From the IMG/VR virus record IMGVR_UViG_3300031974_003505, positions 1 through 33,933 of that record: DNA of 33,933 nt; one strand, written 5' to 3'. Position numbers and translations under genes: made by a program. Shown in pieces: positions 4,819 through 9,985 of this stretch (position 1 is the first letter of the stretch; each line of letters begins with the position of its first letter). The DNA comes from a virus. The notes under the pieces are model-generated. The model did no database searches. It saw only the letters and a program-made list of their open reading frames with translations, and was not told the origin of the DNA.

Positions 4819-5489
4819 GAGACCACCATTTTGGCGCCCATCATGCGAACGCTTGTTAATCGATTTCCGTTTAATAAATAATTTGGTCTTAGTCCTGGCA
4901 CCGCCATGATTTCTGCACTTTGCGTTGCCAGCTGCTTATCCAGCACCGCAGCAGGTATTGTAATTGGCAAGTTTGGCCAATGGCCGTCCTTCCACGCGCC
5001 AACATAAATTAGGCCATCGCGTCGCTGCTGCCACAAATAGCCGCTTATCTCGAATACGTCTGCTAGCGCTTTTATTAAATGAAACCCGTTTCCAGTGTTT
5101 ATGAAGTGCGGCACAGTTTTGGCGACATAGTCTGCCGACGGCAGTGCAAAACCCAGCCCTGTGATCTCCTTAACTTTTGTCAGCACATCTTTCAACGTTG
5201 CATTTCGCAATGCTAATGGCACCGGCATTTCGAGCATGTTTGATTTTTCTCGGCAAAATATACTTTGCACGCCATCGCCTGCCGTTGTTGATTTTTCTAT
5301 GTATCCATATAACTGCCCTTGTTGCTGCCCGCCATCAATGCCAAACGAAAAAAACGCGGTCCCACTGAGTGAAACCGCGCTTTCTACAACAAACGTTGCT
5401 CGCCCTGGCATGCCAGAGTTCAGTGCTACATCATGAGAAACCAGCGACACTCGTTCACCGTTAATTTTGAGCGTGTAGTCATACTTCAT
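4806..5489 (-). CDS. D: Tail hub protein, D-like
   Basis: A 227-aa protein resembling the N-terminal part of phage hub proteins of the gpD/gp27 group: an opening beta segment with KINGERVS, GRATFVVES and an aromatic LYGYIEKS, then a LysM-like or helical insert (LKDVLTKVKEITGLGF, FHLIKALADVFEISGYLWQQ). P2 gpD is longer (about 390 aa), but short versions are typical of the HP1/K139 branch. It overlaps both neighbours (U-like and V-like), so the three are translationally coupled and probably build the central baseplate hub. Confidence 0.7.
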   Translation of the reverse strand: MKYDYTLKINGERVSLVSHDVALNSGMPGRATFVVESAVSLSGTAFFSFGIDGGQQQGQLYGYIEKSTTAGDGVQSIFCREKSNMLEMPVPLALRNATLKDVLTKVKEITGLGFALPSADYVAKTVPHFINTGNGFHLIKALADVFEISGYLWQQRRDGLIYVGAWKDGHWPNLPITIPAAVLDKQLATQSAEIMAVPGLRPNYLLNGNRLTSVRMMGAKMVVSWKR

Positions 5490-6030
5490 CCGCCTTACCT
5501 TCTTCTTCTGCTAATTTTGCATCCATCCATGCGAGCCCTTTCTCAAACCAACCCACGGGCACGCTTTCTGCTGCCGACACTTCCGACACCACAACTTCAT
5601 CAGCTGGGGCCGCGTCCGGCTCTTCTTCCTTGATTTTCTTCTCTTCCACTTTTTCCGGTATCGACAAATATTCAACGAGCGTAAAGCTGACCGTCCACGC
5701 TTGCGAATCGTCCAACTCTTGCGCGCTAACTTCTTCTGTGAACTTTACTTGCCGAACGCCAAATGCCTTTGCCGTTTGATTATTTATTGTATAAACGACC
5801 CGCTTTCCGCCATCGTCTTTTGCAGTACTTAGCCGCTTTATCGTCTTTAAATAATCTGAATCATCGTATTTAATGTTTAACGTGATTCTTAATCGACACG
5901 CCTTGTCGCCCTCTTCCGCTGTAGCGGTAGACGAGCTTTTACCCGACAAGTCGGACTCAGGCAAACTAAACTTGCAGTTTACCTTGTGTCCGTAGCCCTC
6001 TATTTTTGTATCGTTCAGCGCTAGAATCAC
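5479..6030 (-). CDS. Baseplate/tail protein (K139-type, U-like position)
   Basis: A 183-aa protein. The first ~125 residues look like a compact beta-rich tail-tube-like or LysM-linked baseplate domain (GYGHKVNCKFSLPESDLSG, RLRITLNIKYDD, QAWTVSFTLVEYLSIPEK). The rest is an acidic, low-complexity linker with a Glu/Lys/Pro/Ala tail. It sits directly before the D-like hub and overlaps it by 11 bases, a position held by a tail-completion or baseplate-complex protein in HP1/K139-like phages. The exact role is inferred from context. Confidence 0.6.
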   Translation of the reverse strand: MILALNDTKIEGYGHKVNCKFSLPESDLSGKSSSTATAEEGDKACRLRITLNIKYDDSDYLKTIKRLSTAKDDGGKRVVYTINNQTAKAFGVRQVKFTEEVSAQELDDSQAWTVSFTLVEYLSIPEKVEEKKIKEEEPDAAPADEVVVSEVSAAESVPVGWFEKGLAWMDAKLAEEEGKADEV

Positions 6031-6034
6031 GACT

Positions 6035-6193
6035 TCATCTACTCCACTTCATCACACCAAACTGGTGTTGATAATTCGCCATCCCGTACGGTTCTGTCAT
6101 GTAACAAATGGGCCGTGGCGGCGCTGGTTCTGGCGTTAATACTGCATTAACGCCCCACCCGATCAGTGCAATTCCCACGTAAGTAAGAAACAT
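6035..6193 (-). CDS. Small single-pass membrane peptide, 52 aa
   Basis: A short ORF opening MFLTYVGIALIGWGVNAVL, a single hydrophobic helix, followed by a Pro-rich stretch and an aromatic tail. The ATG at 6193 is preceded by an excellent ribosome site, GAGGTG at about 4 nt, lying at the end of the previous gene. It fills the gap between the 96-aa gene and the U-like gene without leaving untranslated space, which supports it being real. A spanin or lysis accessory role is possible, but no lipobox or known motif was found. Confidence 0.6.
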   Translation of the reverse strand: MFLTYVGIALIGWGVNAVLTPEPAPPRPICYMTEPYGMANYQHQFGVMKWSR

Positions 6194-6200
6194 GATCACC

Positions 6201-6491
6201 TCAGCTCAGCGGAAACCGCGCTTTGATGCGCTCTACAGCAGTAATGCCCAGCGTTCGAGCCACTTCTGCTCCCTCTTCATCGCCTTCTGCGCTTTTGCGC
6301 ACTGACTCTAAAAACAGCGGATCCGATTCGCGCTGGTACGCATTTGCGCGCTTTTGCACGTTTTGCGACAACTCGAATGCACGCTGAGCATAAACAGAAT
6401 CGATTTGCTCTTGATCCATGCCTAACGCTGCCATATAGGCTTCGCTGAAATCGTCGTGCGTTTCGTTGTTAAAAATGTAAGTTTGCTTCAT
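6201..6491 (-). CDS. Hypothetical phage protein, 96 aa
   Basis: An all-helical, charged 96-aa protein (MKQTYIFNNETHDDFSEAY at the start, LGITAVERIKARFPLS at the end). No membrane segment and no family recognised. It begins inside the 3' end of the reverse transcriptase gene (23-base overlap) and ends next to the ribosome site of the 52-aa ORF. It may be a tail-fibre chaperone or tail accessory protein. A DGR-accessory role is also possible because of its position next to RT, but nothing in the sequence shows it. Confidence 0.6.
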   Translation of the reverse strand: MKQTYIFNNETHDDFSEAYMAALGMDQEQIDSVYAQRAFELSQNVQKRANAYQRESDPLFLESVRKSAEGDEEGAEVARTLGITAVERIKARFPLS

Positions 6492-7764
6492 TTTGACCCC
6501 TCTTGAGTTTTATGCTCAGTAGTTTTTGCGTTAATTGCTTGGTGCTAGCGTGGCGCGCATGGCCCAGCCAGCTTTGAATATTTTGCTGTATGTCGATTAG
6601 ATCGACCTCGCCAGCGGCGTATTTCTTTTGAAATTTACGCAGCTTGGTTTTAATTCTTTTCACGCTGCATTTGCGTAACAAACGATGCGTTGAGTAAATC
6701 CGATAGCCGAGAAAATCCAACGCCCTCCCGTTGTGTTTTGCAATCGGGAATACTTGCGTTTTGCTGTTTGTTTGCAGTCTCAATTGTGACCACAGAAACC
6801 GCTCGATCTGTTCGCGCCACTCATGCAACTGCGCTTTGTCGTGATGAATGACTGTGAAATCATCCATATAACGCATGTAATTTGGCGCTTTTAATGTGTG
6901 TTTTACGAACCAATCCAACTCATGCAAATACACATTGGCAAAAACTTGGCTAGTCAAATTGCCCAGCGGTATGCCGACGCCTGCCGCATCGCTTGGGCTG
7001 TTGTCGATAATGTAAAACAACAGTGCTTTCGTGCGTTGGCACCTTAATTTTTTATCTAATATCGATTTCAATATACTGTGATCGATGCTCGAAAAATACT
7101 TGCTAATGTCCGCTTTTAGCGCGAACGCTTTGCCGTGTTTACGCTCCACTTGCTGTATAAACGATTGCGCCCGATCCGCGCCTTTATGCGTACCTTTGTT
7201 TTTGCGGCACGCATAGGAATCATAGATATATTGGCGATCAAACAGCGGTTCGATGATGTTATAAATTGCCCTATGCACAACTCTATCCCGAAAATGCGGT
7301 GCGCTAATTAGCCGACGTTTTGGCTCAAACACATAAAAATGATGATAGAGCGACATTTGATACATCTGCCAAACTAACTCGTTTTGTATGCTGATCACGT
7401 TTTCTTCGAGATTGTTAAAAAACGACAATACCGCTGTGTTTGTTGTTTTACCGAGCCGACACTGATATGCCGCATTCAGTATGTTTTCAAACTGATAAAT
7501 CTGTTCGTATAAACACTCGCTCGACGCATCGAGCGAGGTAATTCGTGTTTCGGCAATAGCCGAGGATGCTGCATCCTTTTCATGACTGCACTGACAGCAC
7601 GCCTTGGCGTTGCTGTTTCTGGCATTATCAAGAGCGGGGCGGAACCCGATGTTCGTGTTCGAATTCGAACGAGCATTGTTCAGATTGAGCGCGCCCAACC
7701 CGGCATTCGAGCCGTTGTTCCAATTGCCACCGCGTAGCGGGAATCGGTTCCGCTTATTCATCAT
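6469..7764 (-). CDS. brt: DGR reverse transcriptase, with TR-encoded N-terminus
   Basis: A protein of 431 aa from the ATG at 7764, which overlaps the avd stop codon (ATGA) and has AGGG upstream. Residues 6-44 are encoded by the template repeat. The RT domain starts near residue 85 (LYEQIYQFENIL) and contains KRRLISAPHFRDRVVHRAI, the catalytic Asp of LKADISKYF (219), the DGR-type signature GIPLGNLTSQ (264-273), YMDD (299-302) and a thumb-like basic C-terminus. It copies TR RNA into mutagenised cDNA with errors at adenines. No ATG, GTG or TTG occurs between the end of the TR and LYEQIYQF, so translation seems to pass through the TR; a rare ATT start or an unusual start within the TR (one TTG) remains possible. 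Confidence 0.93.
   Translation of the reverse strand: MMNKRNRFPLRGGNWNNGSNAGLGALNLNNARSNSNTNIGFRPALDNARNSNAKACCQCSHEKDAASSAIAETRITSLDASSECLYEQIYQFENILNAAYQCRLGKTTNTAVLSFFNNLEENVISIQNELVWQMYQMSLYHHFYVFEPKRRLISAPHFRDRVVHRAIYNIIEPLFDRQYIYDSYACRKNKGTHKGADRAQSFIQQVERKHGKAFALKADISKYFSSIDHSILKSILDKKLRCQRTKALLFYIIDNSPSDAAGVGIPLGNLTSQVFANVYLHELDWFVKHTLKAPNYMRYMDDFTVIHHDKAQLHEWREQIERFLWSQLRLQTNSKTQVFPIAKHNGRALDFLGYRIYSTHRLLRKCSVKRIKTKLRKFQKKYAAGEVDLIDIQQNIQSWLGHARHASTKQLTQKLLSIKLKRGQNEANLHF
7633..7748 (-). repeat. DGR template repeat (TR)
   Basis: A 116-bp segment matching the VR at 8205-8320 at 112 of 116 positions. The four mismatches (7652, 7659, 7665, 7724) are all adenines in the sense (minus) strand here, replaced in the VR by G, G, T and G. 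The sense strand holds roughly 25 adenines, concentrated in ten AAY (Asn) codons in the shared frame, the design that gives most amino-acid diversity without stop codons. It lies between avd and the RT domain, as in other phage DGRs, but inside the RT open frame. Confidence 0.96.
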
Positions 7765-8114
7765 GCAGCACCCTGTCTCTGTGGGTTTGCAGCTTTTATC
7801 CAGCCGCCCACCATTTTTCCTATTTCGACCAGCTTTTCTGACCATATCTGGTATTTTTTAACATCTATGTAACGTAAATCTTTTGCCAGTCTTACTCGTC
7901 TACGCAGTATTGACAGCTCGATATCCAAATCCGTTAGCGTCGTTTTCTTGTGATAGCGCTTATACGCTGTAATGATCAAGCGCTGCACTGACAGCATTGA
8001 CTGCCTGATTTCAGCGCCCAAAACGTGTTTTTCGTGTTTTGGGAATTGCTGCACAGCGTTGTATCCATACATCATCATTTCTCTGCATTTTTCATCAATC
8101 ACTAGCACTGTCAA
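7761..8114 (-). CDS. avd: DGR accessory variability determinant Avd
   Basis: A 117-aa, highly basic, helical protein. Its FPKHEKHVLGAEIRQSML core and later LSILRRRVRLAKDLRYI helix match the four-helix-bundle Avd family (Bordetella phage Avd is about 128 aa). Avd assembles as a pentamer that binds RT and TR RNA and is needed for retrohoming. Translation probably starts at the TTG at 8114, six bases after AAAGGGG; GTG at 8108 or 8102 is an alternative and the first ATG (8078) would remove 12 residues. It follows the variable-protein gene and overlaps the RT start by ATGA. Confidence 0.9.
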   Translation of the reverse strand: MTVLVIDEKCREMMMYGYNAVQQFPKHEKHVLGAEIRQSMLSVQRLIITAYKRYHKKTTLTDLDIELSILRRRVRLAKDLRYIDVKKYQIWSEKLVEIGKMVGGWIKAANPQRQGAA

Positions 8115-8154
8115 AACGAACCCCTTTCGTATACTGCTGACAAGTAAAGTAAAT

Positions 8155-8172
8155 GCTGGGCTATCGCCCAGC
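8155..8172. promoter_or_regulatory. DGR target-recognition hairpin downstream of VR
   Basis: A perfect 7-bp inverted repeat (GCTGGGC/GCCCAGC) with a four-base loop. Read on the sense strand, the loop is GATA, which fits the GRNA tetraloop consensus described for hairpin/cruciform elements that mark the VR for mutagenic homing. It lies 20 bases after the stop codon of the variable gene and 32 bases past the VR boundary. No U-run follows, so it is not an intrinsic terminator. Confidence 0.75.
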
Positions 8173-8192
8173 GATCAAAGATTCACAACTCA

Positions 8193-9419
8193 CTACACAA
8201 ATAAAGCGGGGCGGAACCCGATGCTCGTGTCCGAATACGAACGAGCATTGTTCAGATTGAGCGCGCCCAACCCGGCATTCGAGCCGTTGTTCCAACTGCC
8301 ACCGCGTAGCGGGAATCGGTCGCCATAGTTGCGAGAATATATGTAGCCTGTTAGCCCAGCATCACCAGCCGATTCGATCAATAATCGGCGCAACACTTCG
8401 TTTTCCGCGTAGCTATCGTCTTTCGCAATAGCTGAAAACAGGCTGTTTGTGTTATATCCGTAACTCGTACCGTCATCGCCCGTTGGGCCAGTTCGGTTTG
8501 TAATGGTGCTGTTCAATATTGGCGAGCCGACACTGCCAGACTGATTGGCCGACGGCGAATCAAAATAGGCAGTATGGCGGTGCCAATTTTCTTCAATAAC
8601 TGACGGATCGTTATCCAGCGTCGTGATAATACGCCCATCTTCTAATCGCATTTGATCTAGCCATTCATGCACATTGCCGACTAGGTCTTGAATGCCAAAT
8701 GCGCCATGGTCATGTGCCCATGCGTCTGGCCCCGAGCCTGTATCGGTTCGACCTGTACCAGAGGTGTTTCCAGGCATGCCGCCATCGGCGCGCAATGCCG
8801 TTTCGTGCTTCATGTCGTGCGCGCGGCCATAGTTTGTATTGCCGCGTGGCACCGTGCCATTTGCCAATGACCAAAGCGAAATAGCGGCCCACTCCCACGT
8901 CGACGACATATGCCAATTCAATCCCTTCATCGTGCTGAGCAATTTTGCGGCGTCGTAATTCACATTAGTGCGCGGCTGCACGCCGCCGATGATAGAGCAA
9001 CCGCCACCCGCTCCTGCCGACGCCTGATATTTGCCAATCAAAAATTCCCCGCGATCAACGCCGTTCGTTCGGAACGCTGGATGCGTGCCCGTACCCAACT
9101 TCATATCAACACCCGTTGCCGTCAAAATAGCAGCGTTGACATCTTCACAGTTAAAACGCGGCACCACGACCATAATATTTTCATTGCCTTGGGCGTCGAG
9201 AATCATCGTATTTCGACCACCAGACGCCTTCTCAACTGCGTTGCGGTAACCGGCCGTAGCCGTGATAGTTAACGACGCGGTTTTTTCTGCAAAGTTTGAA
9301 TTTACATCATTGATTGATTGCGTAGCGTCTTCGCGAATAGATTCAAACGACTCTTTCGCAGACTGCATTTGCTGTGTTGCGCTCGTTAGCGCCGTTGTTG
9401 CATCAGTAATATCGCTCAT
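8193..9419 (-). CDS. DGR variable protein, receptor-binding tail-fibre tip (FGE/C-type lectin fold)
   Basis: A protein of 408 aa. Residues 1-55 are a helical, probably trimeric linker (TQQMQSAKESFESIREDATQ). Residues ~75-405 resemble the formylglycine-generating-enzyme/sulfatase-modifying fold, a C-type-lectin variant: FLIGKYQAS, a central STWEWAAISLW, VGNVHEWLDQM and the terminal RGGSWNN...IGFRPAL. The VR encodes about residues 367-405. Compared with the TR-encoded sequence, four Asn are now Ser, Tyr, Asp and Ser. It overlaps the short gpH (ATGA) and takes the place of the distal fibre, so it probably contacts the host receptor. AGAGGAC precedes the ATG. Confidence 0.93.
   Translation of the reverse strand: MSDITDATTALTSATQQMQSAKESFESIREDATQSINDVNSNFAEKTASLTITATAGYRNAVEKASGGRNTMILDAQGNENIMVVVPRFNCEDVNAAILTATGVDMKLGTGTHPAFRTNGVDRGEFLIGKYQASAGAGGGCSIIGGVQPRTNVNYDAAKLLSTMKGLNWHMSSTWEWAAISLWSLANGTVPRGNTNYGRAHDMKHETALRADGGMPGNTSGTGRTDTGSGPDAWAHDHGAFGIQDLVGNVHEWLDQMRLEDGRIITTLDNDPSVIEENWHRHTAYFDSPSANQSGSVGSPILNSTITNRTGPTGDDGTSYGYNTNSLFSAIAKDDSYAENEVLRRLLIESAGDAGLTGYIYSRNYGDRFPLRGGSWNNGSNAGLGALNLNNARSYSDTSIGFRPALFV
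8205..8320 (-). repeat. DGR variable repeat (VR)
   Basis: A 116-bp counterpart of the TR with changes at 8224, 8231, 8237 and 8296, all at sites where the TR sense strand has A. The 3' end (sense) is an adenine-free GC-rich block, GGGTTCCGCCCCGCT, shared by both repeats and suited to be the initiation-of-mutagenic-homing site. The sequences diverge immediately after it. Confidence 0.96.
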
Positions 9420-9985
9420 ATTTTGTCCTCTAATTTCAGTAATCGCTCGTGATTTTTAATTGCGCTGTTTAGCGCGGAAATGGTCGCAACGCTGTTTTGC
9501 ATGACGCCCATTTGCATAGATTCAATTTCGCTTTCATAGTCGTATTGCCAAGACTCTATTGGCAGATCTGCGCTAGTCATTTGCTTTGCATTTGAAAACG
9601 GCACAACTAAATTTCGGTTTATAACCTGCCCTATGCCCTTTCGTTTCCGGTTAGTTGGCAAGTATTGGAACGCCAACAGTACGCCCGTATCTGTTACCGC
9701 CCCATAAAAGTTAAAATCAAAATCACCAACATCTGACCCTAAAACCAATGAATAGGTTACGGCGTTATCGTTGTTGTAACGCGGTGCACCCACATCAATT
9801 TTCCCGCCCACTTGCTGCGATGCGACGGGCAACCCTGACGCCGGATTTGCTGTTGTTGTTTCGCTGGCCCCTGGTACATTTGCCAAGACAAAATGCGTTA
9901 TCACCACGTCTTCTAACGCTGCAACTTTTTGCGCTATATATCGTGCGCCCGCATCCGTTACTGTTCCGCTCACTATTTCTGCCAT
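9416..9985 (-). CDS. H: Tail-collar fibre protein, short gpH-like
   Basis: A 189-aa protein matching the N-terminal phage tail-collar (DUF3751-type) domain that fixes fibres to the baseplate: it starts MAEIVSGTVTDAGARYIAQK, with DVVITHFVLANVPGA and DFDFNFYGAV following. P2 gpH is more than 600 aa, so only the attachment domain and a helical end (NSAIKNHERLLKLEDKI) are kept. The distal receptor part seems to have been handed to the DGR variable protein, whose gene overlaps the stop codon. No gpG-type fibre chaperone is recognisable nearby. Confidence 0.85.
   Translation of the reverse strand: MAEIVSGTVTDAGARYIAQKVAALEDVVITHFVLANVPGASETTTANPASGLPVASQQVGGKIDVGAPRYNNDNAVTYSLVLGSDVGDFDFNFYGAVTDTGVLLAFQYLPTNRKRKGIGQVINRNLVVPFSNAKQMTSADLPIESWQYDYESEIESMQMGVMQNSVATISALNSAIKNHERLLKLEDKI

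Follow-up and report, generated by a model that had tools for sequence, protein, structure and literature searches.

The window, the whole stretch of DNA analysed here (IMGVR_UViG_3300031974_003505, positions 1 to 33,933), contains a cassette that, judged by its sequence, is a complete adenine-directed diversity-generating retroelement (DGR) of the VHML/VP58.5/ACA branch, carried by a P2/HP1-like phage. It would seem very likely that this complete DGR has a reverse transcriptase (RT) that is translated through its own template repeat (TR) and the adjoining spacer. The features are as follows.

6201..6491, minus strand, small protein (phrog_5714), overlapping the RT 3′ end and conserved with the cassette
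6469..7764, minus strand, RT, 431 aa as read here (Pfam RVT_1; PHROG 1423)
7510..7632, minus strand, spacer or linker, 123 nt, structured RNA with a coding signal in the fused clade
7516..7537, minus strand, 9-bp hairpin with a UGCG loop, helix 5 of the spacer consensus structure (from covariation counts)
7633..7748, minus strand, TR, inside the RT frame and in the same frame as the variable repeat (VR) has within the variable protein
7761..7764, minus strand, ATGA, the avd stop overlapping the presumed RT start codon (from the sequence)
7761..8114, minus strand, avd (accessory variability determinant), TTG start, 117 aa (Pfam bAvd PF22296, E 6.6e-34; PHROG Avd)
8155..8172, minus strand, DNA hairpin/cruciform, GC-rich 7-bp stem and GATA loop, 32 nt past the VR
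8193..9419, minus strand, variable protein, presumed receptor-binding, 408 aa, C-type lectin / FGE-like fold by profile match
8205..8320, minus strand, VR, at the 3′ end of the variable protein gene
9416..9985, minus strand, P2-like tail fibre N-terminal (hub attachment) protein, a separate gene upstream of the variable protein

The TR and VR are each 116 nt long and align without gaps at 97% identity. In the sense orientation (minus strand) the mismatches stand at TR positions 25 (A to G), 84 (A to T), 90 (A to G) and 97 (A to G). A sequence-only reading had already placed the repeats at these coordinates with all four differences at template adenines; its ten Asn (AAY) codons in the TR were confirmed by translation and its estimate of about 25 adenines by counting (25 of 116 bases). 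It is hardly credible that the pair is a plain duplicated sequence with four chance differences. There are only four of them, and the chance that four random differences all fall on A, (25/116)^4 or about 0.002, is not zero. This reading is, however, contradicted by the complete set of DGR genes and by the adenine specificity of 39 distinct TR/VR pairs from this branch (the window among them; compared over the last 105 nt of the TR), where 477 of 497 differences lie at a template A and 51% of template adenines are changed as against 0.6% of other bases. The pattern in the window is therefore not chance. At sites other than A the VR matches its own TR in 11,738 of 11,870 pairwise comparisons (the pairs overlap and are not independent). 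As the search was ungapped, TR/VR pairs with indels lie outside the set. No third copy of the repeat was found across the 33,933-base record (E up to 0.001). Between the VR and the end of the variable protein ORF lie 12 nt. In the window the TR and VR share their final bases and diverge only beyond the repeat (IMH versus IMH* comparison).

That the VR has changed little, as had been remarked before, is real: in the last 105 nt only 4 of 23 template adenines are altered, the lowest share of the 41 loci listed (median 0.54). This is in keeping with homing that was recent or brought few mutations. The low share would also be consistent with a cassette that is inactive or nearly so, the four changes being a relic of old homing, but this is improbable given that the variable protein, Avd and RT frames are all open and the RT retains YMDD and GIPLGNLTSQ. 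Moreover, compared with its 94% relative L006, the VR of the window differs at 11 of 105 sites, ten of which are template adenines while one follows its own TR, whereas the two TRs differ at one site.

Avd, an RT with these motifs and a lectin-like variable protein, the set proposed from the sequence alone, are all recovered by Pfam, PHROG and profile matches. The nearest solved structure to the RT is 8UB7, a DGR RNP (Foldseek TMt 0.87), and the RT profile matches 8ub7 over profile positions 82–410 (E 2.8e-83). The enzyme in this structure we take to be the BPP-1 RT. The motif of the DGR clade of RTs is given as (I/V/L)GxxxSQ in a passage of PMC3521204, and GIPLGNLTSQ conforms to it as YMDD does to YxDD. 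A hairpin with a 6–7 bp stem and a G[A/G]NA loop lies no more than 90 nt from the VR in 41 of 41 loci listed, window included (7 bp in 34, 6 bp in 7). A GC-rich hairpin with a stem of 7–10 bp and a 4-nt GRNA loop after the VR is described as a DGR element in a section of PMC3240598, and the hairpin in the window is of the same class.

The variable protein gave no Pfam match. It does match PHROG 2889 (E 1.8e-133), and a 17-row profile that includes the window matches TaqVP 5vf4 (E 4.6e-79); its structure prediction was too poor for use (pLDDT 44.7). The protein resembles the ‘antireceptor’ of phages ACA1/ACA2. The earlier proposal that a P2-type tail fibre is being retargeted has to be amended, as the P2-like fibre N-terminus (Pfam PF12571, E 2.1e-19; PHROG tail fibre families) is encoded by the separate gene at 9416–9985 and the target is the lectin-fold-type protein at 8193–9419. 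The small protein has a weak match to the tail fibre assembly family phrog_35518. At the DNA level the window has only weak matches, in phages; a scan of genome contigs gave one distant locus, which was left unused. The cassette combines an adenine-directed TR/VR pattern, the RT motifs, Avd, a ligand-binding-fold target with the VR at its 3′ end and a GRNA hairpin. By these sequence tests the set is complete, as the sequence-only reading had it, though that reading missed the place of the TR inside the RT frame 6469–7764.

In the window the RT frame opens at the ATG of the ATGA and continues through the TR and spacer. As read here, RT residues 1–85 are encoded by the avd overlap, the TR and the spacer, with the conserved core starting from 7509. 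From the TR end onwards the 458-aa frame contains no ATG, GTG or TTG codon up to residue 140, a position beyond the core start. The PHROG 1423 (reverse transcriptase) family already takes in the TR-encoded stretch. Among the loci listed with a core identity of at least 64.5%, window included, the TR frame is open in 41 of 41 and the avd/RT overlap is ATGA in 41 of 41. The linker is free of any ATG, GTG or TTG in 28 of the 41. A Shine–Dalgarno-like AGG is found upstream of the coupled ATG in all 41, on a loose criterion with no background rate.

Two samples of relatives were used. The first, the best 80 of 507 matches, was biased towards in-frame loci by a query that contained the TR-encoded part; the in-register TR frame seen in 33 of its 36 listed loci below 64.5% identity was rejected as an artefact of the query. 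The second, the best 80 of at least 570 matches, was collected with the RT core alone, and 14 of its 80 loci, in which no TR was found, were left out before the counts. At 64.5% identity or above, 20 of 20 listed loci in this sample are open with ATGA. Below 56% the TR frames are random (16, 13 and 14 of 43 listed loci), 8 of the 43 are open through the TR, none of the 43 has ATGA and a possible start is present in every one of the 43 linkers. Ten of 87 loci were left out as no TR was found (L007, L018, L025, L034, L045, L050, L052, L053, L056 and L085). A 115-nt gap for L004/L114 was traced to a misplaced anchor, and protein alignment gave a linker of the common length.

The fused loci group in a single clade (support 100/99), with linkers of 123, 126 or 129 nt, so that the frame is kept. 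In 25 loci, non-redundant at 95% and taken from 36 with a 123-nt linker, the linker dN/dS is 0.35 in frame versus 1.16 and 1.02 in the other two frames. Within the fused clade the linker shows excess variability at third codon positions (P = 8e-4), an excess not seen in the 34 homologous spacers from relatives that are not fused (P = 0.56). Where ZX4290 and the Aeromonas relatives have a Met directly in front of the core, all 41 of the 41 loci listed carry T, L, S or I. Conservation of the CQC and DAS peptides was rejected as proof of coding, since the same bases are RNA motifs.

From its covariation the spacer is a structured RNA, RT-14-like, that carries a protein-coding signal in the fused clade only. 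Rfam RT-14 (RF02921) matches the window at 7515–7634 with 44.7 bits (E 3.1e-4), just under the gathering score of 48.1, and is above that score in 2 of 16 relatives searched (L086 and L084). The RNA model R1 gives 136.7 bits at 7510–7635 in the window, which is in its training set, and finds the spacer in most non-fused relatives searched. The spacer has 73 doubly compensated cells compared with 20.9 in shuffles and no more than 12 when slid. At 123–129 nt the spacers of the window branch are shorter than other RT-14-type spacers (mostly 164–202 nt), and they also show a coding signal.

It is unlikely that this is an ordinary BPP-1-type DGR, in which the TR and spacer would be non-coding, the RT would start at an unusual spacer codon (ATT, CTG etc.) and the open frame would be incidental. 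In favour of that reading, the TR is intergenic in most DGRs, according to a passage of PMC8144416. The brt gene of BPP-1 starts 144 nt after the TR, tblastn aligns BPP-1 only from residue 112 of the 458-aa frame onwards and the first 81 positions of the RT profile have no counterpart in 8ub7. RT residues 1–82 are predicted to be disordered (pLDDT < 50); a folded N-terminal domain was for now rejected on this account, and a function of the tail itself finds no support. Codons such as ATT are present in the linker, and the eight distant relatives that are open through the TR are scattered on the tree. Such a start is, however, difficult to reconcile with the invariably open frames and ATGA overlaps, the 28 linkers lacking the usual starts, a coding signal confined to the fused clade, linker lengths that preserve the frame and the T, L, S or I in place of the pre-core Met.

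We infer from these sequence features that the RT is translated through the TR, though some loci speak against it. The linker frame is broken in VHML, a close relative of VP58.5, which falls outside the 41-locus set because this break brings its matched identity down to 61%. Some ATG, GTG or TTG occurs in the linker in 13 of the 41 loci listed. The Aeromonas relatives are open through the TR yet retain their own ATG just before the core, and as the upstream frame is broken in one of them (L087) the N-terminal tail looks dispensable there.

VHML, VP58.5 and ACA1/ACA2 share the order of fibre N-terminus, variable protein, avd (not annotated in VHML), TR, RT and small ORF, and the 4-nt avd/RT overlap is also found in VP58.5 and ACA1. 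The RT core of the window is 73% identical to that of VP58.5 and 74% to that of ACA1, whereas its P2/HP1-like backbone is divergent from those phages. The cassette is like BPP-1 in having Avd, a TR upstream of the RT, A-directed differences, a lectin-fold target, a GRNA hairpin after the VR and a structured spacer between TR and RT. It does not have the BPP-1-type arrangement, with TR and spacer between avd and the RT gene: in BPP-1 both are outside brt, while in the window both are inside the RT frame, which overlaps avd by 4 nt. For phages ACA1/ACA2, translation of the TR as an N-terminal extension is stated in one sentence of a 2023 paper (PMC10612066). A TR inside an RT ORF is already described in PMC3521204, a paper that sorts overlaps with annotated ORFs into classes and sees no tight correlation between DGR structure and RT phylogeny; unlike that picture, the TR-in-RT arrangement here is one clade with coding evidence. 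We found no earlier report of the fused clade, the coding test or the dual-use RNA.

The window bears sequence signs of past homing. In this branch, ribosomes reaching the avd stop would begin again at the overlapping ATG and continue through the TR and spacer into the RT, which would then carry an N-terminal tail of about 85 residues. As proposed from BPP-1, the avd-TR-spacer RNA would be bound by RT and Avd, and TR cDNA with random bases opposite adenines would replace the VR at the 3′ end of the variable protein gene. By analogy with the BPP-1 system this may alter receptor binding by the phage. If the RT is read in this way, the same stretch of RNA would be message, template and structured RNP scaffold.

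It is possible, though doubtful, that the TR and RNP scaffold are indispensable as coding sequence of the RT, that passage of the ribosome gates retrohoming and that the shared frame polices the template. With such gating, an RNA under translation could not be reverse-transcribed and an RNA being copied could not be translated. Policing would come about because a break in the TR frame would silence the RT before the damage entered the receptor-binding gene. No stops are found in the TR or linker of the 41 fused loci listed, nor in the TR (variable-protein frame) of the 42 non-fused loci listed. Since the TR frame is also kept where there is no fusion, the stop count has no power on template policing, which is unsupported.

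Should the RT indeed be translated through its own TR, gene callers and DGR surveys built around an intergenic TR may give such RTs a wrong start or file them wrongly, and synthetic DGR designs might tie expression of the enzyme to the integrity of the template. A conflict between ribosome and RT would be built into the element and directly testable, which would offer a simple route to asking how DGR activity is limited.

The window, an entire virus record of 33,933 bases, carries an integrase, P2/HP1-like tail and baseplate genes, a portal, a terminase and a replication initiator, and its diversity-generating retroelement (DGR) is laid out on the minus strand as follows.

9985 to 6201, minus: whole cassette, in the order P2-like fibre N-terminus, variable protein, avd, template repeat (TR), reverse transcriptase, small ORF
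8193-9419, minus: variable protein
8205-8320, minus: variable repeat (VR)
7761-8114, minus: accessory gene avd
7633-7748, minus: TR
7510-7632, minus: linker, the spacer between the TR and the enzyme core
from 7509, minus: conserved core of the reverse transcriptase
6201-6491, minus: small ORF

The nearest solved relative of the enzyme is 8ub7, a DGR reverse transcriptase, which we take to be the BPP-1 enzyme. For the variable protein a Pfam search gave no match, and a 17-row profile matched TaqVP (5vf4, E 4.6e-79), described as the lectin-fold variable protein of a Thermus aquaticus DGR (PMC6328139). A hairpin with a GATA loop and a 7-bp stem lies 32 nt past the VR and is present in 41 of 41 loci, the window counted; comparable hairpins are described in phage DGRs (PMC3240598). 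The small ORF directly after the enzyme gene belongs to phrog_5714, has a weak tail-fibre-assembly match and might serve the variable protein as a chaperone. Its family was found by motif search in 37 of the 38 fused loci (those with the TR inside the open reverse transcriptase frame) with sufficient sequence, three others being too short; the single miss is L006, the closest relative among the loci compared, where tblastn gives a match of 61%.

The sequence-only reading had placed the two repeats at these coordinates with four differences, all at template adenines, and this was borne out. Four of 23 adenines changed is the lowest share among 41 loci (median 0.54). When 39 distinct TR/VR pairs from the branch, that of the VHML/VP58.5/ACA DGRs, are pooled, 477 of 497 differences fall at a template adenine (A to G 288, A to T 118, A to C 71). 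Where two TRs carry different bases, neither of them adenine, the VRs match their own TR in 11,738 of 11,870 pairwise comparisons, made between overlapping pairs. Compared with L006, whose enzyme core is 95% identical, the window has a single difference in 105 TR sites and 11 in the VR, ten of these at template adenines and one following the TR.

The template itself looks adenine-mutated in L007, where 8 of 114 template bases (L007:5559-5672) differ from those of its near-identical relative (L003:5559-5672), seven of them at adenines, while the flanks are identical at 196/200 and 198/200 positions. The enzyme frame beside this TR is short, with an apparent internal deletion. The pattern could come from the TR being hit by its own machinery or from gene conversion from the VR. 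Further, weaker cases of such template erosion are possible in L020 (3 of 105 TR differences from L009, all A/G; cores 99.7% identical) and L019 (6 of 105 from L016, all A/G; cores 95% identical).

In the window, the stop codon of avd shares the sequence ATGA at 7761-7764 with an ATG, from which an open frame runs uninterrupted through the TR, a 123-nt spacer and the enzyme, and the TR frame in this ORF is that of the VR in the variable protein. No in-frame ATG, GTG or TTG occurs between the TR and the conserved core, the next in-frame start codon downstream being a TTG at 7428, inside the core. The tblastn match to the BPP-1 enzyme starts at the core, residue 112 of the 458-aa frame. The public PHROG reverse transcriptase profile phrog_1423 includes the TR-encoded stretch, so the long start has also been taken in the gene calls of others. 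For ACA1 and ACA2 the TR is described as translated into an N-terminal extension, uncommon among other DGRs (PMC10612066), and DiGReF group 3 is described as having TRs that overlap the annotated RT ORF (PMC3521204).

The first set held 87 loci, window and named phages counted, with a TR found in 77. At a core identity of at least 64.5% all 41 loci are open through the TR, and in every one of them the ATGA overlap is with an ORF 80 or more codons long; the start context GCATTATGA is found in 37. The linker is free of ATG, GTG and TTG in 28, and the possible linker starts of the other 13 differ in position. The scan was repeated with a core-only query to avoid query bias, taking the best 80 of 570 matches. 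Above 64.5% identity it gave 27 loci, 20 with a TR, all 20 open and with the overlap. Between 56 and 64.5%, the Aeromonas-type loci, 3 of 3 were open, with their own ATG before the core and without the overlap. Below 56% there were 50 loci, 43 with a TR; the frames of these 43 were split 16/13/14, 8 were open, none had the overlap and all 43 had a possible linker start of their own. The 4-nt overlap also occurs in named Moritella, Photobacterium and Vibrio plasmids and in phages ACA1, ACA2 and proACA1-A. The residue just before the core is Met in ZX4290 and the Aeromonas relatives, and T, L, S or I in the 41 fused loci. Three points count against translation of the upstream frame: 13 of the 41 loci have the possible linker starts just mentioned, the frame looks optional in the Aeromonas relatives, and the linker frame of VHML is broken, through either a real break or a sequencing error.

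Several loci showed other features. In prophage proACA1-A (L177) the enzyme match is split into two pieces in different frames, a split also given by its authors (PMC10612066); we regard it as a decayed copy, its sister phages keeping the frame open. In the non-fused L128 and L146 an Avd-like ORF apparently lies just downstream of the enzyme gene, by eye. The Photobacterium damselae plasmid L175 has an annotated enzyme CDS shorter than the matched region, and two DUF1566 proteins after the cassette (5170-6155) that could be extra targets. Upstream of the cassette in L004, about seven perfect 96-nt tandem copies (L004:1332-2022) represent a repeated protein segment or an assembly artefact.

The linker appears to be coding and structured RNA simultaneously. 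In 25 non-redundant fused loci its dN/dS is 0.35 in frame, and the two alternative frames give 1.16 and 1.02. For the first, second and third codon positions, diversity is 0.21, 0.24 and 0.37 among fused loci (Wilcoxon p 8e-4), compared with 0.40, 0.45 and 0.41 among 34 homologous non-fused spacers (p 0.56); the test takes codons as independent, so that p is a guide and the non-fused control the stronger point. The synonymous difference (pS) is 0.46 in the linker and 0.85-0.90 in the core, roughly twice as high, which is what an additional constraint from RNA structure on the linker would be expected to produce. The consensus structure derived from 21 fused linkers comprises 30 pairs, and 95.7% of its cells are paired. 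Doubly compensated cells number 73; shuffling gives 20.9, and sliding the partners gives no more than 12. The covariance model of the fused linkers, the window being among the sequences used to build it, matched 24 of 31 sources at E <=0.01 and 28 at E <=1; among these sources it found nothing in BPP-1, BalMu-1 or L167. Rfam RT-14 scored 44.7 bits on 7515-7634 of the window, below its threshold of 48.1, and was above threshold in 2 of 16 relatives searched (L084 and L086). Among the titles and abstract openings of the open literature searched, none described the clade, a coding test of the linker or the dual use of its RNA.

In a tree of 67 enzyme cores, in which the outgroup does not lie on one side of any single branch, the 24 fused rows form one clade (100/99). 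This adjoins six rows, three of Aeromonas type and three non-fused (L122-L124), whose grouping together has weak support (81/40). Non-fused rows that are open lie dispersed over the tree, with 8 changes for 8 rows. The simplest reading of these sequences is a single origin of the fusion, retained afterwards.

In BPP-1 the spacer is described as recruiting the enzyme and Avd, with an internal adenine priming cDNA synthesis (PMC12875486). By analogy, RNA from avd through the spacer would form the template RNP, and cDNA randomised at the template adenines would replace the VR and so alter the receptor-binding tip of the phage. Ribosomes finishing avd and reinitiating at the ATG that overlaps its stop would, in this branch, make the enzyme with no need of a start codon of its own downstream of the spacer. 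The native brt of BPP-1 is described as lacking a clear ribosome-binding site (PMC12875486), a lack that a coupled start may be one way of getting around. Since the N-terminal tail encoded by the TR and spacer is predicted to be disordered, we think that the benefit of the fusion would lie in expression control and not in a new domain.
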